The notes under the pieces are model-generated. The model had not been told where the DNA came from. It did no database searches and saw only the letters and a program-made list of their open reading frames with translations. 64,000 bases of DNA from Acidobacteriota bacterium. Lineage in GTDB: Bacteria > Acidobacteriota > Terriglobia > Acidiferrales > UBA7541. The translations under genes were made by a program, and so were the position numbers. The stretch covers positions 62,001 through 126,000 of the forward strand of contig PMTV01000053.1 of NCBI GenBank assembly GCA_003167215.1, given 5' to 3'. Positions within the stretch are counted from its first letter, which is position 1; each line of letters starts with the position of its first letter. This document shows, in pieces, positions 1 to 20,265 of this stretch.

Positions 1-432
1 TAGTTTTCTTAGTCCCATGATAAACGACACCTCAACATAAATGTTTACTTCGATTTCACGGGAAGGGGGGCGGAGACGAGCGCAGCGCACTCGCCAGCTT
101 CCAAGCAAAGACAGTGTGTCTCGCGGCCGGAAACCGTTCAACTGGCCTAGGGGACAGGTGGGGACCAGTACGAATGGCCAGTTTCCCTCGATCCTCGGAA
201 GTGAGCAACTCAGGCTGACTTTTGGTGCGCCGCATAAACGCTTCTCGTGCCAAACAAATTTTCTCTCGCAATCATCCGTAGAGGACATCCCCGCATTTTC
301 AGCACTGAAGCGCTAGACAAATAGTTCGACGATTCCGACGCCCGATGGATTCCCGCGCCGCGTGAAACGTGACGTCTGCCCACGGCCGTGGGACGGGGAC
401 GGATCGTCCATTCCAAGGGAGAATTCAATCAC
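1..432. other. Left-edge region without a supported gene
   Basis: No convincing coding sequence is seen here. Short open frames exist on both strands but overlap each other and have neither recognisable products nor good ribosome sites. The last 20 bases hold the ribosome-binding site (AAGGGAGA near 415-422) of the capsid gene. Any genes upstream of the capsid, such as portal, protease or scaffold, would lie outside the window. Confidence 0.5.
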
Positions 433-1707
433 ATGGCACAAATGCAAAATGCGCAATCGGTTGCGCTGCAACTGGAAAAAGTCCGGGACAAGCTTCCGCT
501 GCTGTACGAGCGCGATGACATCCTACTGACCATGATCCAGCAGCGCGGCGACGTGGAACGCGTCAGCTCGCGGAACATGCGTTTGCCACTGCAAATCCGT
601 CCAGGAGGCAAAGCAGGCTTGGCCAACATGGACGGCGGAGATTTGGGCCGCGGTTCGGGGACGGTGTACGACGTGGCGCAAGTGACGCCGGTATTTTTCC
701 GGCACGCTGTGGAAATCACGAAGTTGGTGGAATACGCATCGAACGCTCCGGAAAAAGCAATCGAGAACGCAGCGAAACGCGAAGTGAAGAACGCGATGTT
801 TCAGTTTCGATCGTTTCTCGACAAGGTGATGCAGACGAACGGTAACGGCGTGCTGGGCACCGTCAGCTCAATTACGACCACAGGATTGCCCGCCGGCGTG
901 GCGGCGCAATTCGGGATGGCCAAGCCGCCGGGCGCGCAGCTTCTCTACTACAACCAGACGGTGCAGGTTTACGATCCCACGCTGACAACGAATCGCGGCT
1001 CGGCGAACATTTTGCTCGTTGATCCGTTCAATTCGCTGATTCAGGTGGACGGATTGCCCACGGGTACGAGCGTCAACGACTTGATCGTTCACGACGGGCT
1101 AACCGGAGCGCAACCTACGTCGCTCTTCGGCATTCTGTATCATCAGACGAACGCGACGACGGGGACGTGGCTGAACTTGAACCGCGCAACGTATCCGGTG
1201 GAACTCGCAACACCCACGGTGAACGGAAACAATTCGGCGATCACGCCGGGTGCAGTGCGCCTTGCCATCAACAAAGTGCGGAAATCGTTGGGCTCGAACC
1301 AGGTTTCGAAGCTCATTGCCTACACGGCGTTGGAACAGGAACATCAGTGGGAGCAGCTCGGCGTCACGATTTCGCAAATCATCAAGGAGGGAGCGGGCGG
1401 GCGCGCGAGCGATCTCGATCTACTCTTCACCGGCGAGAAATCGATGGCGGGAGTGCCGATCAAATCGTCTATCAATGCCAATCAGACGCGCGTGGATTTC
1501 CTGGATCTTTCGCACTGGGGCCGCGCGGTGATGCAAGACATTGATTTCTACGACGTGGGCGGGCAAACCGTGTTCCCGATTTACGGCGCAAGCGGCGGAA
1601 TTTCGGCGGCGTACATCTTCTACTTCGTCACCGGTTTCCAGGTGTGGAACGAGTCGCCCCGCAGCGGCGCGTACATCAACAACCTGGCGATTCCGACGGG
1701 CTACTAG
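433..1707 (+). CDS. Phage major capsid protein candidate (HK97-like)
   Basis: The 424-residue product has the look of a phage or prophage major capsid protein. An N-terminal helical, charged stretch (about residues 1-45) precedes a long mixed alpha/beta region. An early segment carries NMRLPLQIRPGGK and the C-terminal part ends with the pattern FQVWNESPRSGAYINNLAIP. The length fits HK97-fold capsids without a long scaffold domain. The ATG at 433 is preferred to an in-frame upstream start at 388 because AAGGGAGA lies about 10 bases before it. There is no portal or protease beside it in the window, and the next genes are host-like, so it may belong to a decayed or rearranged prophage. The family is assigned by general resemblance; an encapsulin-like role is possible but less likely. 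Confidence 0.6.
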   Translation: MAQMQNAQSVALQLEKVRDKLPLLYERDDILLTMIQQRGDVERVSSRNMRLPLQIRPGGKAGLANMDGGDLGRGSGTVYDVAQVTPVFFRHAVEITKLVEYASNAPEKAIENAAKREVKNAMFQFRSFLDKVMQTNGNGVLGTVSSITTTGLPAGVAAQFGMAKPPGAQLLYYNQTVQVYDPTLTTNRGSANILLVDPFNSLIQVDGLPTGTSVNDLIVHDGLTGAQPTSLFGILYHQTNATTGTWLNLNRATYPVELATPTVNGNNSAITPGAVRLAINKVRKSLGSNQVSKLIAYTALEQEHQWEQLGVTISQIIKEGAGGRASDLDLLFTGEKSMAGVPIKSSINANQTRVDFLDLSHWGRAVMQDIDFYDVGGQTVFPIYGASGGISAAYIFYFVTGFQVWNESPRSGAYINNLAIPTGY

Positions 1708-5180: not shown

Positions 5181-5867
5181 TTGAACGGACTACTGGGGCA
5201 GGGAATTCAGCGGGACATTTTGGTGGACACGCGAGCGAAGGAAGACACGGCGGCGACGGTGGCGATCGGCTCGGTGTCGGAGCAGGACTGGTACGTATCG
5301 CGGACGCACGGGGTTTACCACATTCCGGCTTGCGCTAAGGGCGAAGCGTACGCGCTGTTGTTGCTGACGTCGCGCGGCGACGCGCTGGATCTGGGCGACA
5401 ACCGGCGCTTTCCTTTCACGATTTCGGCGCGCGAGATTGCCGTGGATTTGCTGCAGGATCTTCAGGACCACGGCGTGTTCGTTTGCGCGGGAGCGCGGCC
5501 TGCGGCTGAGGAACTTAGTGCGGCGCGCGATCGGCGCGATGCGTTTTACCAGCGGCTGATCGGAGAAGGCGACACGATGTGGGCGCGCGGGCATTCGTTC
5601 CGCGAAATTTCGGATTTGCACCGGCGGGCGGCGATCGGCCTGGGCGTCGAACGCGAATGGGCTTACGTTCCGATGCGGATGAACGATTGTCCGGCGTGCG
5701 GCCAAAAGGTGAAGCAGGGAGTGGCGGTGTGCAAGCATTGCGGCGCTATTCTCGACGCGGAGAAGGCGGCGAAGCATGGGCTTGGCCTTGGAGCGAAAAA
5801 TAATGCGGGGCAAGCAGCTCCGGGAGCGCGCGCAAAATCCAACTCCGGCGCAAGCGGACAAAAATAG
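5181..5867 (+). CDS. Zinc-ribbon protein of the virion-like cluster
   Basis: About 228 residues. A TTG at 5181 is chosen as start because AAAGGA lies about 8 bases upstream, while the frame further upstream runs through a repeat. The N-terminal two-thirds has no recognised domain. It includes DWYVSRTHGVYHIPACAKGE, in which a His and a Cys might bind metal, and a helical segment near the middle. The C-terminal part holds a clear zinc ribbon with CPACGQ and CKHCGAI separated by about ten residues. The final 25 residues are Ala/Gly/Lys-rich. Nucleic-acid or protein binding is possible. It lies between a hypothetical gene and the giant beta-helix gene on the same strand. Confidence 0.6.
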   Translation: MNGLLGQGIQRDILVDTRAKEDTAATVAIGSVSEQDWYVSRTHGVYHIPACAKGEAYALLLLTSRGDALDLGDNRRFPFTISAREIAVDLLQDLQDHGVFVCAGARPAAEELSAARDRRDAFYQRLIGEGDTMWARGHSFREISDLHRRAAIGLGVEREWAYVPMRMNDCPACGQKVKQGVAVCKHCGAILDAEKAAKHGLGLGAKNNAGQAAPGARAKSNSGASGQK

Positions 5868-5952
5868 CAGCGACGTGTCGTCAGTTCTGTATAAATTGAC
5901 GGGATTGCGGTACAAAAGCGAGGGTACACAGCGGCGAAGAGGCAAACACGAC

Positions 5953-8900
5953 ATGAGACCAAACGGCACAATCCGGCTGGCTGGCATTCAAATGACTCGC
6001 GCGGGGTCAGATTTGGCGCGAGATGTTCGTCGGTGTCTAACGCAAGCGTTGCGTGCGTCGTGGCACTTGGCGCGTGGTGTTCGCAGCGGTACAACGGGCG
6101 GGCGGACAAGACGGCTGACCGGAGCGCTGACGGCGTACGCGGCGCTGGTTGCGACTGTGGCGCTCGCGGCGTCCCTGGCATACGCGCAGGGATCGCGCAA
6201 AGATGATGTTGTGTTTGGTCCCGAAGGGCATCCGGTGGCGGGGGCGACGATTACGGTGTGCCAATCCACCGCGACAGGAACACCGTGCTCGCCGCTGGCG
6301 ACTCTGTTTACCGATGCGACGCTGAGCGTGCCGTCGCAAAATCCGTTTCAGTCCGACGGGCTCGGTAACTACCATTTTTACGCTCCCGCAGGACGCTACT
6401 TAATTCAAATTACCGCGCCGCAAATAAATGGGACGCAGACTTTTCCGGATGTGATTCTTCCCGCCGATCCTTCGTCCACAGGAGTGGGCAATAATATTTC
6501 GGCGTTTGGACTGACGCTGGGCGGAAATTTGACCGTAGCCGGAAATGCAAACATCGCCGGAACGCTGACGACGGCCAATTTTAGCCCCGGAAGTTTCACG
6601 CCTACGTCTTTGAGCGTCCTGGGGAGCGAGACGATAACCGGCCCGCGACCGCGCATCGACGTGACTGCGTACGGCGCGAAGGGCGACGGCGCGACCGACG
6701 ACACGGCTGCGATCCAGGCTGCCATCACCGCGGCTTGCGGGACTCTTATCGGCGGCATCAGCGTAATCCCCGAATTGGATTTTCCGTCGGGAGTCTATGC
6801 CGTTAAACAACCGCAGCTTCCTTCTACCGCGCCGGTATTTGAAGTCCCTTGCGGGCGGTTAACTTTTAAAGGTATGGGAACTGCCAGCACGCTGCAATTC
6901 GTGCGAGGCCCGATGGCGGTGGTAAGAAGCATCGCTGGGAGCAGCCCGAACAACGCGCCGGTGTTTGACCTGCGCTATCCGGGTGCCTACGCAGGCACCA
7001 CATTCCGCGACATTGAGATTGACGGATACAACAAAGCTCTGTGGTTTTACACCACGACCAGCGACAAGCTGGAAAATGTAAACCTGTTCGTACAACAGAC
7101 CGGGCAGGCCGATAACAGCGCTCTGGAGGTCACCAATTCGTTCTGGTTTGAGTGGCACGGTGGCGAATGCGCCGGCGCGGAAGTGTCGGGAATTTATTGT
7201 GTGCTGCTGACGGGAGACGCGCCGCTTGGAAGCGAGGCTCCGCTAGACGGTCTGATGGAATTCGATAACCTGCAAGGAATCGGCGGGATGTTTCATTACG
7301 ACCAGCGCGTGAACACCGTTGGAAGCGGTCCGGGAAATATGCACTTTCAGGATATTCGGGGATGGGAAGCGAACCACGGGCCGTTCTTCTACATCACGAA
7401 TAGCACGGGTAATCCCGGCGGGACGGCACTTCCGGTTATGACGAATTTGACGTTCGGGAACGTGAGCGGAGCAGACTCTACCTGCGCTGCGGGGGTGGCT
7501 ACATCATGCGCCTTGGTGGAACTCAATTCGTCCGGGTCAAACCTGAACGGTGTAATCATCGACTTTTCGATCGGTGGGAGTGGCGGCTCACCGATGATTC
7601 AAAACGATAATCCCAGCACTTCTTCCGTGTATGGTTGCAACATCCGGTCGGGCGGAAATTTTTCTTCAAACGGCCTGGTGCAAGACAGTAACGGGAATCC
7701 GGTGTCCGGATGCTCGGCCCAAAGCTGGAATGGGTTCGACTACTTTGTTAGATCCGGAGGGGGAGGCGGCCCGGACCCCCGGCTGCGTAGCGATGTAAAC
7801 GTATATGGCGGCTACGACGGTGACGCTTTGCGAGCAACCTTCAATGGCAGCCGGTTCGCCGGAGTGGGCATCGACCCCGTTTTCGGGCTGATGCTGAATG
7901 ACGGAACTGACTTCGGTTATGGCGCGAGCATCGCGCAGAATGCGAGCGGGAGTTTCGACATTCAGTTTCCGCGAACTTATCCGCCCACAAGCGTGGCGGG
8001 CACGGCTACTACGGGCGGCTCGATTGCGGCGGGCACGTATTTCGCGACGATGTATTCGACCACGACGAGTTGCAGTTCGACGGAGTCGGCGCCTTCGCAG
8101 CAGAGCGCGGGCGTGGCGCTGAGCGGCTCAAGCAATGCAATCACATGGAACTGGACGCTTCCTATCAGCGGAGTCAGCACGATTGCAGGTTATTGCATCG
8201 CTACTTCCACGGTTCCGTATTTGAACAACGGCCAGTGGCAACCGGTGCAGACGAACTACACCTTTATTTCGGGCGCGAGCACGAGCAGCTTCACGATGAC
8301 GGCGTTGCCGTCCGCCGGCGGCCCCGATTCAGTGATAAGCACGCTGATGCCGGTGCACCGCTTTACGCCTAGCTCACTGGGCATCAACAACACGAATCCG
8401 CAGTTTAACCTAGACGTGAACGGAACCGCGGCGGTGAACGCGCTCAACGGAGTGCAAAAGGCGGAGCGCTTTTCGGGCGCGGACGCTGCGGCCAAGATCA
8501 CCGCCTGCCTTTCCGCTGCCGCGGCATCCACAGCTTCGGCGGTTTGCGACGCGCGCGGAATGGCCGGAACGCTAACGGGGGCGCATCACATCACGATTCC
8601 TGCCGGCACTGTTTTGTTGTGGGGGCAGGGACAACTCACCGTCACTGATACAACCACGAATGATGCCGTGGAATTGACCGGGGACGGCGCGTCCATCAAA
8701 GGATATCAAGAGAGCGGCACCGGCACGATTGCCAATCCGGACACTTCCGGCTTCATCGCCTGCGGCAACGCGGGATGCACCACGGTGAAAAATCCGAATC
8801 AAGCTACGTCTAAAATAAATTTCGTGCACATCGAGGGCATGGCGCTCACTGCGACCGGCGCGAGTTCAAAAGTGATCGACATGACCAGCATCGGCCACTC

Positions 8901-10938
8901 GGACATCGAAAACAACAACATCACTCTGGGCACGGGAGGAACTTCCTACGGAATTTACGGCAACACCTCGGTGGGCGACCTGGACGGCACAAATACTTTG
9001 TTCAAGCATAACAATATGAATCCGCAGTCCAGCGGGGACACCTGCTTTTATCTCGCCGGCATCTACAACGCGATCGTGCTGGAACAAAACGCCTGCATTC
9101 TGCCGCCGGCAAGCTCCACCGGCTACGTTCTGGCGAAAGACAGCAATGGGAATTATCCCAACAACGACGAAATATACGGAAACGACTGCGAAAGCTCCTC
9201 CGCCGCATTTGGACAGATTTGCTACAACATTATCGGCGCCACCAGCGTCACGTTTGGACCCAACAACCGCTGCGAAGATATTTACAATTGCATTCAATTT
9301 CCATCCGACGGCTCGGCCATCGGCATTCACCTTCTCGATCCGTACCTTTCCATTACCAATGCGACGCAGATCAAGCCCAACGAGCCGGCCACCGCGATGG
9401 TGGCGATCGATAACAACGGGCACAACTGGACGCCTTCGATGCATTTCGGGCAAAACGATCTGGCCAGTACGAACCTGCTCGCAAATGCCGGGTTCGAGGC
9501 GTGGAATGGCGGGACTACCTTGTTGGCGTGGGGCGGGGCGAGCGGCACGAATATCAATCAAGCTGCTTCCGGAATTTACGCGCGGCAATCGAGTTCGAGC
9601 GCGCCCGTGGATGGCAACACGCAGGGCAGCTACAACGTGAAGGTCGGCGACGGGGCGACGGCCGGACTCGGCGTGAACACGCAATGCATTTCGGTGGATC
9701 CGGCGGCGGAATACACATTCGGCGTGCGCGTGGCTGCGGGTTCCACATCCGCCAATTTCAGGCCGGGGTTCCGTTTTTATTACGACTCGAATTGCACCGA
9801 AGCGGACAAAATCACGAACATCGCCACCAACGCCCGCGTGCTCGCGCCCGCAAATTATGTGGACAATGGCGGCAACGGCGGCAATTGGCAGAGCACGAAC
9901 GCGTCGCTCACCTATAACAACGGGATTACTTGCAACTGCAACGTCACCGGCGCGGACTGGCAAGTAGCTACGGCGAATACCTGGACTGTGAACCGCAATT
10001 ACGCCGTGATTTTTCGCGTGCCGAACGGGTACAGCGTTTCAACATCCGTGGCGCATTCGATGCGGATTTTGTTGCTCGAAAATTCGGCTTCGTCAAGCAA
10101 TTACATTTATTTTGACGACGCGTATCTGGCCAAAGGCCCCATGCCTTCCGAGCCGCGCTTCGCGCCGCTTGCGGACAGCGGCAACGGCGGAAGCGACACG
10201 GTGTATTCGAATCTCAGCGTGCAGGGGAGTGTGAACGGAACGAGCCAGAATGCGTCGAGCGCGGGTGGGCAATTTTTGGGCGCTACCAGCGGAACTGCGC
10301 CGAGTCTGATCGCGCAGTTGAGCACGGGGCAAACCGGACACATGTTCGATCTGGACCCCAGCGGCTCGACGACTCCGGTTTCTTTTTTCGATAATTCCGG
10401 CAATCTTTTTTCCCGCAACGATCTGAATGCAGTGAGTGCGCTGGGCGCCGCGACCGTTTCGATGTCCAACGCGAGCGACGGCCTGGCGATAGCCCCCGCT
10501 TCGGGCACTACGAGCGGAAATGCACTCAAGGTGATGGCACCCGGATCGTCCGCCACGATCAACGCGTCCATTTCTTACGCGGGTAACGTGCAGGGAATTT
10601 TCCTGCTAGCAAATCGAGGGAGCTCGATCAGCGCGTCGAACGTGACGCTATCAAGCGGATGGGGAAGCTCTGCGTCGGTCACTGCCAGCGGGACGAGCCA
10701 GCGGTTTACAGCGACCGTGACAGCGAGCGGGACGGCCGCGGCGAATCCCACGGTGGCGATTAATTTCACGAATACCTGGCCGCTGACGCCCATTTTCATT
10801 TGCAAGATGGTGGGTGGCACCGGCACGGTTGCTAACGTCACGGGAGAAAACACTGCAACCACCGGAAGCATGACGCTAACGTACAACGCGACACCTGCCA
10901 GCGGGTCCACGTACATTTTTAACTGCCACGGCGAATAG
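5953..10938 (+). CDS. Giant beta-helix (pectate lyase-like) protein with export signal
   Basis: A protein of 1661 residues. The ATG at 5953 follows GAAGAGG by 10 bases and avoids overlap with the zinc-ribbon gene. A basic N-region of about 55 residues leads to a hydrophobic segment (57-77) ending AYAQG, a likely Sec signal or anchor. A carboxypeptidase-regulatory-like segment follows (about 95-160). A pectate-lyase-type beta-helix begins near 240 with the pattern GAKGDGATDDTAAIQAAI, as in phage tailspikes and exported polysaccharide lyases. A second helix-type region starts near 834. From about 1172 (NLLANAGFEAW) there is a carbohydrate-binding-like jelly roll, and the C-terminus is Ser/Thr/Ala-rich beta sequence. 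A carbohydrate-binding or -cleaving surface protein is inferred. The signal peptide is unexpected for a virion tail fibre. Confidence 0.7.
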   Translation: MRPNGTIRLAGIQMTRAGSDLARDVRRCLTQALRASWHLARGVRSGTTGGRTRRLTGALTAYAALVATVALAASLAYAQGSRKDDVVFGPEGHPVAGATITVCQSTATGTPCSPLATLFTDATLSVPSQNPFQSDGLGNYHFYAPAGRYLIQITAPQINGTQTFPDVILPADPSSTGVGNNISAFGLTLGGNLTVAGNANIAGTLTTANFSPGSFTPTSLSVLGSETITGPRPRIDVTAYGAKGDGATDDTAAIQAAITAACGTLIGGISVIPELDFPSGVYAVKQPQLPSTAPVFEVPCGRLTFKGMGTASTLQFVRGPMAVVRSIAGSSPNNAPVFDLRYPGAYAGTTFRDIEIDGYNKALWFYTTTSDKLENVNLFVQQTGQADNSALEVTNSFWFEWHGGECAGAEVSGIYCVLLTGDAPLGSEAPLDGLMEFDNLQGIGGMFHYDQRVNTVGSGPGNMHFQDIRGWEANHGPFFYITNSTGNPGGTALPVMTNLTFGNVSGADSTCAAGVATSCALVELNSSGSNLNGVIIDFSIGGSGGSPMIQNDNPSTSSVYGCNIRSGGNFSSNGLVQDSNGNPVSGCSAQSWNGFDYFVRSGGGGGPDPRLRSDVNVYGGYDGDALRATFNGSRFAGVGIDPVFGLMLNDGTDFGYGASIAQNASGSFDIQFPRTYPPTSVAGTATTGGSIAAGTYFATMYSTTTSCSSTESAPSQQSAGVALSGSSNAITWNWTLPISGVSTIAGYCIATSTVPYLNNGQWQPVQTNYTFISGASTSSFTMTALPSAGGPDSVISTLMPVHRFTPSSLGINNTNPQFNLDVNGTAAVNALNGVQKAERFSGADAAAKITACLSAAAASTASAVCDARGMAGTLTGAHHITIPAGTVLLWGQGQLTVTDTTTNDAVELTGDGASIKGYQESGTGTIANPDTSGFIACGNAGCTTVKNPNQATSKINFVHIEGMALTATGASSKVIDMTSIGHSDIENNNITLGTGGTSYGIYGNTSVGDLDGTNTLFKHNNMNPQSSGDTCFYLAGIYNAIVLEQNACILPPASSTGYVLAKDSNGNYPNNDEIYGNDCESSSAAFGQICYNIIGATSVTFGPNNRCEDIYNCIQFPSDGSAIGIHLLDPYLSITNATQIKPNEPATAMVAIDNNGHNWTPSMHFGQNDLASTNLLANAGFEAWNGGTTLLAWGGASGTNINQAASGIYARQSSSSAPVDGNTQGSYNVKVGDGATAGLGVNTQCISVDPAAEYTFGVRVAAGSTSANFRPGFRFYYDSNCTEADKITNIATNARVLAPANYVDNGGNGGNWQSTNASLTYNNGITCNCNVTGADWQVATANTWTVNRNYAVIFRVPNGYSVSTSVAHSMRILLLENSASSSNYIYFDDAYLAKGPMPSEPRFAPLADSGNGGSDTVYSNLSVQGSVNGTSQNASSAGGQFLGATSGTAPSLIAQLSTGQTGHMFDLDPSGSTTPVSFFDNSGNLFSRNDLNAVSALGAATVSMSNASDGLAIAPASGTTSGNALKVMAPGSSATINASISYAGNVQGIFLLANRGSSISASNVTLSSGWGSSASVTASGTSQRFTATVTASGTAAANPTVAINFTNTWPLTPIFICKMVGGTGTVANVTGENTATTGSMTLTYNATPASGSTYIFNCHGE

Positions 10939-15347: not shown

Positions 15348-17735
15348 ATGTCTATTGAAACTTTTACGCCGTTGCCGCTGAATATCTTCAGCACCTGGAT
15401 CACGCTGCTCGATCCGTCTGATGTGCCGCCGGGGATGTCGCCCTCGCTTGCCGATGTAGAGTTTTTTCCCGGCGGGGTGCGAACGCGGCCAGGGCTTGTC
15501 CCTCAATTTCCGGTGGTGGCGGGGTCGCCGCAGATCAATGGACTGAAAACGTACGCCACGACCAATTTGGTTCAGCGAATGATTGCGCTGGATTCGATCG
15601 GTAATTTGTACAAGGAAACTTCGCCGGGAGTGCTTTCGGTGGTTGCGTCGGGAGGCAAGCCGGGACTTTACCTAGCGTCGGACACGCATTTCGGCCGTGA
15701 ATACATGGCGTTCGGGGACGGACTGATTGGCCAGGACATCCCACGGCAGTATGACGACACGAATTTCGACCGCGTCAGCCAGATTGGGCCGGCGGAAGGG
15801 CCAGCGGTTGCTGACGCCACCGATGCCGGCAATATTTCGCCGGGCGCGCACCAGTGCTCCGTAATTTTTGTCACGCGGCAGGGATACATGACCGCGCCGT
15901 CGCCGCCAACTACCTGGACTGCGGCGGGCAGTAAAAAAGTTAACGTGACAAATATTCCCACGGGCCCTTCGAATGTGGTGCAACGGTTGCTCGCGTTCAC
16001 GGGCAGCGGCGGGGCCACTTTTTATCAAGTGCCCGCGACGATGACAATCAACGACAACGTCACCACGTCGCTGGAGGTGGACTTTACCGACACGATTCTG
16101 CTCAGCGGCTTGAGCGTGGAAAATCTGTTTGGACAGATCGAGCTGCCGTGCCAGCTTGGCGTGGTGGATTACGCCGAGCGGCTTTTTTGGTGGGGGGAGC
16201 GCGCCAAGATGGACAACTGGCGCAATCTTTCGTTCGACGGCGGCTGGGACATTTCCGGCGACGGGCGCCCGCTGGGCTGGCAGCTCGATCCCACGTTCGG
16301 AGCGGGAGGAAGCCGCGAGCCGAGTTTCTCGGTTTGGGGCGATGCATATCGGATTACGGCGGACGGCGTCACCATCCAGCGCGGAACGATCGCACAAAAT
16401 GCGATCACCGACGCGTTCGGCGATCAGTTGCTGGTGAACAACACGGATTATTCGGTGCGCGTGCGCGTGGCGCGCAGCTCGAATCTCTCAGCCGGAACGT
16501 TGCGCATCAATACATACAGTCCGACGATGGGGCTGGTCGGAGCGGGGCTGGTTGTTTCCGCGGCGCAGGCGACTGCTTCGTACCAGGAATTCACGGCGCC
16601 GCTTTTTCCGCCACAAACTTCGCTGCCGACAGATCTGACACTGCGCGTTTATGCCGACAGCACACCGGGGCCGAGCGGCGAGTCGTTTCTCGTTGACGAC
16701 ATAGAAGTATTTCCGACGTTCGCCGCGCAGAATTCATCGCTGGTGCGGGCCTCAGCTACGGAAACGCCGGAAAGTTACGACGGCGTATCCGGAATCCAGG
16801 AAATCGCGGTGAACAACGGGCAGGGAATTCGAGCCGCGTTCAGCTTGCGCAGCAATTTATATTTTGTGAAAGAACGCTCGATATACGTGACCGCGACGGA
16901 CGGAGTCAACGAGCCGGCGCTTTGGGGCGTGGAGGAAGTGTCGAACAAGGTGGGCACGCCTTCGGCGCACGGCGTGGGCTACGGCGAAGAATGGGTGGTG
17001 ATCGCGGGCCGCTCGGGACTTTATTATTTTGACGGCAGCGAGCCGATCAAATTGTCGCAGGAAATCCAACCCACCTGGGACGCGATCAATTGGCAATACG
17101 GCCAATTGCTCTGGGTGCAAGTAGACACGCAGCACAAACGCATTTACGTCGGCGTGCCGATGGGTGCGGCCACGCAGCCGAATCAGATTCTAATGCTCGA
17201 TTACACCGAAGGAATGCAGGACCCGCTCGTCTCGATTTATACGGCCGCGGCGGAACGATCGCGAAAATGGGCTCCGTGGATGATCTCCGCGAATTCGTGC
17301 GGGCTGATCGAGCGGAGCAACGGAGTGGCCCAGGTTTTTCTCGGGGCGAATAATTCCAGCGGAAAAATCTATGCGCTGACCGAAGGGCAGTTTTCAGACG
17401 ACGGCGGGGCGATCAATTCGTTTTACTCCACGGCGTTTCTTGCGGCCACCGGATTGAGCGGCAGAAATTTGTTTGGCTACCTGACGGCTTACGTGCAGGG
17501 GGCAGGCTCGCTGTCGCTCACTTCGTTCTCGCCCGGCGACGTGAGCGTGCTGTCACTCGGCTCGTGGACACTCGCAGCACCAGCTTCGCGCGACATGGAG
17601 CAGTTCACAAACGTGCTGGCCGAGCGTGTGTCGTATCAGATTGGCACAAGCGTCGCGGGGTCGTGGTTCTCGATTACAAAGTTGGTACCTTGGGCGAAGG
17701 CGGATCCGTTCGCGATAGTGCGCGGAACGAATTGA
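15348..17735 (+). CDS. Large phage tail-type protein
   Basis: A 795-residue protein without a signal peptide. The N-terminus, with SLADVEFFPGGVRTRPGLVP near residue 35, resembles the opening of tail-tube or tail-stabilising proteins of podovirus-like phages, where genome-encoded element lists are followed by an Arg-x-Arg-Pro-Gly-Leu motif. The middle (about 310-455) contains a jelly-roll, carbohydrate-binding-like insertion that ends near SFLVDDIEVFP. The rest has propeller-like blades such as WVVIAGRSGLYYFDGSEPI. The start ATG follows a weak GAGA site. It belongs with the preceding small gene. Exact position in a virion is not deducible. Confidence 0.55.
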   Translation: MSIETFTPLPLNIFSTWITLLDPSDVPPGMSPSLADVEFFPGGVRTRPGLVPQFPVVAGSPQINGLKTYATTNLVQRMIALDSIGNLYKETSPGVLSVVASGGKPGLYLASDTHFGREYMAFGDGLIGQDIPRQYDDTNFDRVSQIGPAEGPAVADATDAGNISPGAHQCSVIFVTRQGYMTAPSPPTTWTAAGSKKVNVTNIPTGPSNVVQRLLAFTGSGGATFYQVPATMTINDNVTTSLEVDFTDTILLSGLSVENLFGQIELPCQLGVVDYAERLFWWGERAKMDNWRNLSFDGGWDISGDGRPLGWQLDPTFGAGGSREPSFSVWGDAYRITADGVTIQRGTIAQNAITDAFGDQLLVNNTDYSVRVRVARSSNLSAGTLRINTYSPTMGLVGAGLVVSAAQATASYQEFTAPLFPPQTSLPTDLTLRVYADSTPGPSGESFLVDDIEVFPTFAAQNSSLVRASATETPESYDGVSGIQEIAVNNGQGIRAAFSLRSNLYFVKERSIYVTATDGVNEPALWGVEEVSNKVGTPSAHGVGYGEEWVVIAGRSGLYYFDGSEPIKLSQEIQPTWDAINWQYGQLLWVQVDTQHKRIYVGVPMGAATQPNQILMLDYTEGMQDPLVSIYTAAAERSRKWAPWMISANSCGLIERSNGVAQVFLGANNSSGKIYALTEGQFSDDGGAINSFYSTAFLAATGLSGRNLFGYLTAYVQGAGSLSLTSFSPGDVSVLSLGSWTLAAPASRDMEQFTNVLAERVSYQIGTSVAGSWFSITKLVPWAKADPFAIVRGTN

Positions 17736-18440: not shown

Positions 18441-19457
18441 ATGCTAAATATTTCGCAAATTGAGGCGCTGCGGCGCACGAATCCGCAGCTTTACGAAGCC
18501 ATGAAGCGGCTGGCTGAGGCTTCGCTCGGGCCGAACCAGGGCTGGAGCATCGACAACCAGATCACCGACGGCACGAATTTCGCGCGGGTGACTTCTGGTG
18601 CGTTGACCGGAAATCAGATCGACCCAACGAAGGCGGGCGTGCTGATGAAAGGCTCCGTGCCGCCGACGTGGTCCGGCGCGTTCACCTATGTTTCCACCAC
18701 GACGAGCATCACGTGGACCTGGAGTGGGCTCACAATTTCCCGAGCTGACGGCACGTCAACCACAGTCGCAAACGGCTCGCTCGGCGTTACCGGGCTCACA
18801 GCCGCCACCACTTATTATTTTTACCCTTACTGGGACGATGTAGCGCTTACGATTGCGTGGGTGGGAGCGATCGCCGGAAGCGTAGGCTCGCCTGCAAACG
18901 CGCAGAGCGCGAAAACAAATGTGGCCGCGCAGCAGCAAGCGTTGCAAGGACGCGTTCCGCTTTCGCAAGGCGCGATGATTGCGGCCACCACCAGCAGCGG
19001 AACCGGCGGGGGTTCGGGCGGAGGGAGCGGAAGTTGCTTGCGCGCCGGGATGGTGGTGCAGACGAAGGAGCGCGGCACGGTCAAGATTGAGTCGTGCCAG
19101 GTGGGCGAGCATCTTTGTTGTCCGTGCCATACACACGGAGAGCCGTGGACGCGCATCATGCGGCTGGAAGTTCGCGACGCCGACACGTTCATCCGCCTCC
19201 ATTTTTCGAATCACGAATCGCTGGAGGTCACGCCGCACCACATTTTCACCTTGGCTGACGGGTCGCCGATGCGCGCCGAGCGTTTGTGCTTGAGCGATGT
19301 ACTAGTTGGCCGCTTCGGGCGCATCACCATAAGGAAAATTGAGGTCATCGTCGAGGAAGGGCAGAAGGTGACGGTGAGCTGTGAGCCGTATCACCAATTT
19401 TTCGCAGGGCGCGGCGATGCGGCGATCTTGACGCACAACTACACCTTTTCTTCGTAA
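18441..19457 (+). CDS. Virion-cluster protein with C-terminal Hint (bacterial intein-like) domain
   Basis: A 338-residue protein. The N-terminal 185 residues start with a short helix (ISQIEALRRTNPQLYEAMKR) and continue as beta-rich, tail-protein-like sequence. A Gly/Ser linker (about 187-198) leads to a Hint fold at 199-333. Visible motifs are the N-terminal nucleophile Cys199 in CLRAGMVV, the block B pattern SLEVTPHHIFTLADG near 260, and the block F/G end VSCEPYHQFFAG then ILTHN (His332-Asn333). The residue after Asn is Tyr and only five residues follow, so normal splicing with a Cys/Ser/Thr acceptor is not expected. Cleavage at either end is chemically plausible. No endonuclease domain is present. 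This resembles bacterial intein-like domains. Confidence 0.75.
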   Translation: MLNISQIEALRRTNPQLYEAMKRLAEASLGPNQGWSIDNQITDGTNFARVTSGALTGNQIDPTKAGVLMKGSVPPTWSGAFTYVSTTTSITWTWSGLTISRADGTSTTVANGSLGVTGLTAATTYYFYPYWDDVALTIAWVGAIAGSVGSPANAQSAKTNVAAQQQALQGRVPLSQGAMIAATTSSGTGGGSGGGSGSCLRAGMVVQTKERGTVKIESCQVGEHLCCPCHTHGEPWTRIMRLEVRDADTFIRLHFSNHESLEVTPHHIFTLADGSPMRAERLCLSDVLVGRFGRITIRKIEVIVEEGQKVTVSCEPYHQFFAGRGDAAILTHNYTFSS

Positions 19458-19492: not shown

Positions 19493-19852
19493 ATGACTGG
19501 AAAACGCTACTATCTGACGACGCTCGGCGCGTGGCATCTCCACGCTACGCGATTTGTGAATTCGCATTGGCTCGCGCTGGCACAGGCTGGGGCGACTATT
19601 GTCGCCGGCGAAGTTGCTACTGACGACGCGACGATGATCCTGGTGCTTGTCGAAGCGGATGAAGGCGCGCATCTAGCGCTTGAGGATGACGTGGCGTTCG
19701 AAGCGCTGCCGCATCCTCTCGGACAAAACCCAATCTCGGAGACAGCGCAAACTGCGCTCGCTGCGTACGGAGTCGCGCCAGGGGCAACCACGTTCGACGC
19801 GGCCGAGGCCGTCGCCACTGCGCATCCGCTGCTGCGCCACCGAGTGTTCTGA
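19493..19852 (+). CDS. Hypothetical protein next to the Hint gene
   Basis: A 119-residue protein without a recognised domain or signal peptide. It begins MTGKRYYLTTLGAWHLHATR and contains an acidic central stretch (VLVEADEGAHLALEDDVAFEALPHP). The gene lies 35 bases after the Hint gene and 11 bases before the acetyltransferase-like gene on the same strand, so the three look like an operon. A chaperone or processing-partner role for the Hint protein is conceivable but is speculation. Confidence 0.55.
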   Translation: MTGKRYYLTTLGAWHLHATRFVNSHWLALAQAGATIVAGEVATDDATMILVLVEADEGAHLALEDDVAFEALPHPLGQNPISETAQTALAAYGVAPGATTFDAAEAVATAHPLLRHRVF

Positions 19853-19863
19853 TTTTAAAGCAC

Positions 19864-20265
19864 GTGCTCATCCGCGAATACACTGAGGCTGATCTTGACA
19901 CGCTGCGGCGAATGCACGCGCAGCAAGGATTTGAGTACGCGTTTCCCGATCTGGCGGATCCGCTGTTTGTTTCGAAGCTGGTGGTGGAAGATGGCGCGGG
20001 GTGCGCGGTGATGGCTTCGCTCGCGCGATTGACTTGCGAAATGTATCTGCTAGTTGCGCCGGGGGAAGGGAATCCGTGCGAACGTTACGCGCGCCTGCTG
20101 GCGCTGCACCGCGCCGGTGAACGCGACCTGCTGGCGCGCGGTTTGCACGATGCGCACGCCTGGCTGCCTCCGCCTATCGCCAAGAAATTCGGTCGCCGCC
20201 TTGCGGCCCTCGGCTGGGTCCGCGACGACGCGTGGACGCCGTACTGCCGGCGGCTGATTTTGTAA
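19864..20265 (+). CDS. GNAT-like N-acetyltransferase family protein
   Basis: A 133-residue protein with a GTG start. It opens with the LIREYTEADLDTLRRMHA pattern of GNAT enzymes, which use acetyl-CoA to acetylate amines. The central acetyl-CoA loop (Gln/Arg-x-x-Gly-x-Gly/Ala) is not clearly present: the corresponding region reads MYLLVAPGEGNPCERYARL. Thus the fold may be kept while catalysis is uncertain. Small GNAT-like proteins occur in phage structural operons. It is the last gene of the Hint operon and converges on the minus-strand GAF gene with 19 bases between them. Confidence 0.5.
   Translation: MLIREYTEADLDTLRRMHAQQGFEYAFPDLADPLFVSKLVVEDGAGCAVMASLARLTCEMYLLVAPGEGNPCERYARLLALHRAGERDLLARGLHDAHAWLPPPIAKKFGRRLAALGWVRDDAWTPYCRRLIL

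Follow-up and report, generated by a model that had tools for sequence, protein, structure and literature searches.

A bacterial intein-like Hint domain near the C-terminus of a protein from a phage-type gene cluster of Acidobacteriota

Introduction

Bacterial intein-like (BIL) domains of type A form a thioester at Cys1 and cyclise an Asn, which mostly results in cleavage and sometimes in ligation via the freed amine (PMC4031507; PMC7765530). In Magnetospirillum, a BIL domain with Tyr at the +1 position showed splicing only after this Tyr was changed to Cys (PMC4031507). The usual site of an A-type BIL domain is a hypervariable secreted protein, ahead of a variable C-terminal domain. A hypervariable, often secreted host is a descriptive rather than a mechanistic feature of these domains (PMC7765530).

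Here, we analysed a protein encoded in a 64,000-nucleotide stretch of an Acidobacteriota genome (the window; contig PMTV01000053.1) that ends in an A-type BIL-like Hint domain by fold and residues. In common with the A-type BIL domains, including those of Neisseria MafB and Magnetospirillum, this domain has the Hint fold, Cys1, a TxxH motif, a terminal HN, a length of about 135 aa and no endonuclease; with the Magnetospirillum domain it also shares Tyr as a non-nucleophilic +1 residue. A BIL domain (2lwy) is its best match in both sequence and Foldseek comparisons. In contrast to the usual A-type site, the domain belongs to a conserved structural-cluster protein, stops 5 residues short of its C-terminus and is followed by a conserved tail.

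Other systems resemble it in part. BIL2 of Tetrahymena BUBL1 (6tmm, 6y75) has the same Hint fold (Z 19.8), and in our protein, too, the flexible C-terminus of the carrier could be conjugated; however, a ubiquitin-like domain is missing here, and the context is bacterial and apparently phage-derived. The gp41-1 intein (6qaz/6riz) and mini-inteins give the closest structural fit, and like them our domain is precisely inserted relative to empty-site orthologues (g12 versus g6/g11, see below), but it has a C-extein of five residues, no Cys, Ser or Thr at +1 and no homing endonuclease. Since the +1 nucleophile is missing (Tyr334), the domain is not a standard intein. The hedgehog Hog domain differs in that its sterol-recognition region is absent here and five residues follow Asn333.

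Results

A Hint domain at the end of the carrier protein

The features of the locus are collected in Table 1. The ORF translation bears out each of the residues named in the original prediction (Cys199, TPHH at 264-267, His332-Asn333, Tyr334 and five residues past the Asn), and the predicted Gly/Ser linker is present ahead of Cys199. In the AlphaFold model, the N-terminal part has strands at 76-140, and a tail-tip protein from a viral contig contains a homologue of this part in its C-terminal region; predicted alone and without an alignment, the N-terminal part reached a pLDDT of 44.

Table 1. Coordinates of the analysed features in the window
Feature	Coordinates	Strand	Basis or remark
Cluster extent	window -9469 to 20265 (L063:10531 to window 20265)		relatives L065-L073, L104-L119, L168-L182
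Major head protein (phrog_14242) of the cluster	388..1707	+	profile match
795-aa virion structural protein (phrog_3287), upstream neighbour	15348..17735	+	PHROG match
ORF encoding the 338-aa protein	18441-19457	+	homologues share the same start Met
N-terminal part, residues 1-185	18441..18995	+	N-terminal helices 'MLNISQIEALRRTNPQLYEA...', then beta-rich domain
Gly/Ser linker, residues 186-198 (SGTGGGSGGGSGS)	18996..19034	+	mean majority fraction 97%, 18 homologues
Hint domain, residues 199-333 (Cys199, Hint residue 1; Asn333, last)	19035..19439	+	model and profile
Cys199 codon, block A nucleophile	19035..19037	+	invariant in alignments
Block B Thr264-Pro-His-His267 (TxxH)	19230..19241	+	Pro265, His267 invariant (22-sequence alignment)
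Block G His332-Asn333	19434..19439	+	invariant in alignments
C-terminal pentapeptide Tyr334-Thr-Phe-Ser-Ser, then stop	19440..19454	+	93% conserved
119-aa protein	19493..19852	+	17/18 Hint-bearing loci; no Hint-less cluster
133-aa protein, 'GNAT-like' by eye only	19864..20265	+	conserved with and without Hint

As a single sequence, the protein gave a sub-threshold Hint match in Pfam (PF01079, E 0.067), and the assignment became firm with homologues added. The domain profile matched the PDB sequences of 2lwy (BIL; E 1e-8) and of the gp41-1 intein (2.5e-6). The AlphaFold model, which was built from 20 homologues and has a pLDDT mostly of 60-95 across residues 199-333, shows the predicted horseshoe fold, with 2lwy as the best Foldseek match (E 2.7e-9); compared with the gp41-1 intein, the model range 197-333 gave Z 20.7 and an rmsd of 1.2 Å over 125 residues. 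The distant orthologue L019 alone passes the Pfam Hint_2 cut-off, and the homologue L032 alone passes that of TIGR01443 (intein C-terminal). Residues 199-333 form a Hint domain, and the assignment is far above chance. The horseshoe fold goes together with the residues of an A-type BIL domain, namely Cys as first residue with TxxH (the g12 group lacks the block B residues), a terminal HN and no nucleophile at +1.

In other Acidobacteriota genomes, the domain profile also matched sequences that read as GyrA/GyrB inteins and an RHS-type Hint domain. PHROGs contained no family for the 338-aa protein (P0001) or L019, and tblastn of P0001, L019 and L032 against 50,697 phage records gave no match. 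Besides Cys199, the Hint domain has two cysteines, Cys283 (19287-19289) and Cys314 (19380-19382), which are nearly invariant within g1, g3 and g8 and are missing from L019 and L032; it is conceivable that this pair serves as a redox switch.

Catalytic residues and selection

Full-length homologues were found in three genera of the same family (g1, g3 and g8; 63-91% identity), in IMG/VR contigs (73-79%) and, further off, in the viral tail-tip protein L032 (38%) and in L019 from a second family (27%). None of the 22 aligned sequences, which go down to 27% identity, departs from Cys199, Pro265, His267, His332 or Asn333; Thr264 is replaced by Ser in L019 (SxxH), and Cys199 and Thr264-His267 are kept in the 20-sequence alignment A3. 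The residue after the Asn is Tyr, Phe (L032) or Lys (L019), and never Cys, Ser or Thr in the 22-sequence alignment. The catalytic set and the non-nucleophilic +1 residue therefore hold in the aligned homologues as originally predicted, and g12 alone departs from the set, in block B. Across 18 homologues, Tyr334 does not vary, and both the pentapeptide at the C-terminus and the stop codon behind it are kept.

Relative to the window sequence, dN/dS was about 0.05-0.26 for the Hint domain and 0.10-0.23 for the N part, values that indicate purifying selection on the Hint domain as strong as that on the N part. Conservation is higher in the linker (97%) and the pentapeptide (93%) than in either domain (80-81%). 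The divergence of the Hint domain correlates with that of the N part (Mantel r 0.86), which suggests common descent in g1, g3 and g8.

Orthologues with no Hint domain or a degenerate one

Orthologues without the Hint domain occur in g4, g5 and g7 (176-180 residues) and in g11 and g6 (273-275 residues), and many Acidobacteriota lineages do without the domain. The Hint-less orthologues share the N-terminal signature, and each closes with a Gly-rich stretch followed by a short tail. Within the clusters examined from g4, g5 and g11, the orthologue sits between the homologues of the genes at 15348 and 19864, the same position that the Hint gene has in the window.

In g12 (three genomes; L162-L164), the Hint domain retains Cys1 and HN, block B reads Ala-Pro-Gly-Thr, the block F His is lost and the +1 residue is Met; with a dN/dS of 0.13-0.18, this domain is still constrained. 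The joined g12 flanks (linker + MKLI/MKVI) align with g6/g11 (linker + RFLS/RFLD/RNVL) without an internal gap, so the Hint domain lies exactly at the junction of the linker and the 4-residue tail, as an intein would. This comparison suggests that the Hint-less form would be restored if the domain were removed. Such an in-frame insertion with empty-site orthologues was found for g12 versus g6/g11 and not for g1, g3 and g8, whose N-terminal domain we found in no Hint-less orthologue; the only gap-free comparison thus comes from the block-B-deficient group. Since g12 has lost the block B Thr/His and is still constrained, N-terminal cleavage may not be the function, at least in g12. A viral scan with the g12 protein or L019 gave no relatives.

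A phage-type cluster that looks vertically inherited

Genes upstream of the Hint gene have profile matches to the terminase large subunit and the major head protein. Across genera, the order is terminase, a large protein (a putative portal, by size and position only), head, 5085, 15348, the Hint gene, 19493 and 19864, with ordinary host genes interspersed. The head protein was found in 45 of the 95 genomes of the order, mostly as one copy per genome, and its identity reaches 97% inside the genus and drops to 55% in a different family; more distant head proteins occur in other families of the class. In several genera the cluster is at one chromosomal locus, and DsbA-like and NadE genes flank it alike in g1, g5, g8 and g11. 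We infer vertical inheritance because the head gene is mostly single-copy, its identity falls with taxonomic distance and the flanking host genes are shared. The cluster looks phage-derived and vertically inherited in Acidobacteriota, and its Hint-bearing protein is retained on chromosomes of soil Acidobacteria.

Gene transfer agents are characterised by phage structural genes that pass vertically along with the host, and this is what copy number, identity and flanks point to here; the cluster is a candidate gene-transfer-agent-like or domesticated element of Terriglobia. The phage-cluster setting of the original prediction stands in that phage structural genes adjoin the Hint gene, and has to be amended in that the cluster has a vertically inherited look and not that of a recent prophage. 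The host-type genes of the clusters are also present on IMG/VR contigs L051-L056, which may be fragments of such chromosomes.

The cluster also contains a gene for a 1720-aa protein (window 5776-10938) with a pectate-lyase-like part. Homologous fragments of this protein are found at other cluster positions in relatives, which suggests fibre-like gene shuffling.

Recurrence outside the cluster

The tail-tip protein L032 (1339 aa; contigs L057/L058) matches Phage-tail_3 and tail PHROGs; its match to the gene transfer agent baseplate protein 'megatron' was below the cut-off. At its C-terminus it has the same N-domain, Gly-rich linker and Hint domain, ending in HN-FKSN, on an unrelated viral contig.

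At L059:7920-8945 and L060:7902-9011, a related 'YFFYPYWD' N-domain and Gly-rich linker are followed by a different C-terminal domain, and the position is therefore modular. In another Acidobacteriota family, L183 (G598:C237:1890-2312) is a large protein of secreted type that has repeats rich in Cys/Asp (MopE-like by eye); its C-terminus is a Hint domain with HN and then a short charged tail.

Discussion

Probable self-removal of the Hint domain

We consider it probable that the Hint domain is a self-removing BIL-like domain that matures a structural protein of the phage-type cluster. Judged from the sequence, every residue for the type A BIL steps is present in residues 199-333. First, Cys199, aided by Thr264 and His267, would convert the Ser198-Cys199 bond to a thioester. 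Asn333 would then cyclise with the assistance of His332, freeing Tyr334-Ser338. Finally, the thioester would either be hydrolysed, leaving residues 1-198 with a flexible Gly/Ser end, or be attacked by the freed Tyr334 amine, joining 1-198 to YTFSS. Either product would resemble the Hint-less orthologues with their Gly-rich stretch and short tail, and Hint removal with or without retention of YTFSS appears the most likely outcome. The original prediction had called the domain non-splicing. Its premise, a non-nucleophilic +1 residue (Tyr), was confirmed, but the claim itself is not secured, since aminolysis allows A-type BIL domains to ligate the sequences on either side of them.

Self-removal is favoured by the fold, the invariant catalytic residues, the purifying selection, the placement between linker and tail, the Hint-less orthologues and the viral recurrence. 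Counted against it are the g12 Hint domain without the block B Thr/His, the empty-site comparison from g12 alone and the many lineages without the domain.

Downstream genes and possible conjugation

An alternative that we regard as unlikely is conjugation, in which the Cys199 thioester would be captured by an amine or another nucleophile of a particle protein or a surface molecule, covalently tethering the N part via its Gly/Ser end in the manner of Tetrahymena BUBL or hedgehog. The flexible and conserved Gly/Ser stretch immediately ahead of Cys199 is consistent with this, and BIL2 of Tetrahymena, which is among the best structural matches, forms isopeptide bonds (PMC8616854). The first candidate for an acceptor or helper would be the 119-aa protein. 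At 17 of 18 loci, a member of its family comes after the Hint gene. When its profile was run against 4124 ORFs of other loci, the sole match was the gene after the Hint-bearing gene in L057/L058 (L057:8849-9253), a weak one (E 9.5e-4, three collinear segments). Against conjugation, the 19493 gene lies 2-3 kb off in some loci, a homologue is missing beside the canonical Hint domain of G089 and beside the g12 Hint domains and was not detected in L053, and the presence of the gene is partly explained by shared ancestry.

The original prediction had proposed both downstream genes as partners. Because a homologue of the 119-aa protein directly follows the viral Hint gene, this protein is the better candidate, and it is found in no Hint-less cluster; the gene at 19864 was rejected as a Hint-specific partner, since it is retained in Hint-less clusters. 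The label 'GNAT-like' for the 19864 product found no support, as it has no family match in Pfam, NCBIfam or PDB sequences. In the 119-aa family, the motifs YYxTTL, LPHPL and HPLLRHRVF are conserved and the middle is highly variable. A programmed frameshift into 19493 was rejected, since the distance from the Hint gene varies among loci from about 10 bases to 2.8 kb.

A more specific proposal, which we think quite improbable, starts from a domesticated particle of Acidobacteriota that may be gene-transfer-agent-like, in which the BIL-type Hint domain would form a covalent bond between the structural protein and the 119-aa neighbour, a particle subunit or a surface molecule. In the open-access literature, with subscription journals mostly outside the search, we came across no virion or gene transfer agent protein reported to carry a Hint or BIL domain at its C-terminus. 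Nor did we find there any account of a phage or gene transfer agent in which a covalent bond made by a BIL-type Hint domain serves particle maturation or display.

A possible structural role and other explanations

The other main rival, likewise doubtful, sees in the domain a stable C-terminal module for structure or assembly, with catalytic residues that are BIL relics or fold stabilisers. A structural role has to be considered because g12 keeps a constrained Hint domain without the block B Thr/His, which is the strongest evidence for it; moreover, the different C-terminal domain past the Gly-rich linker in L059/L060 shows that the position can bear a functional module. However, Cys1, the block B His and HN are fully kept in three genera, in G089 and on a viral contig, which is hard to explain without catalysis, and orthologues without any such domain exist.

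A mobile intein with an endonuclease was rejected, since 135 aa leave no room for the endonuclease and since the Hint domain and the N part have diverged in a correlated way. A polymorphic toxin remnant (stalk, HINT and a lost toxin) was rejected as very improbable: a HINT domain after tail-fibre-like stalks is known in polymorphic toxins (PMC3482391) and our Hint domain likewise lies near the C-terminal end of a stalk protein, but the ORF ends 5 residues past HN with no toxin domain, the stop codon and pentapeptide are conserved under purifying selection, the neighbours are phage structural genes, and a PT-HINT search in the genome itself gave no match.

Significance

So far, variable secreted proteins are the main place where BIL domains have been described, and what these domains are for is largely unclear; in the present case, selection keeps one on a structural protein that appears phage-derived. 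Natural orthologues that are Hint-less or block-B-deficient offer variants in which the purpose and the mechanism of the domain can be compared. If active, the domain would be of use in protein ligation as a compact module of 135 aa whose natural C-terminal peptide is short, and it would add a self-processing or protein-joining step to the maturation of a phage-derived particle.
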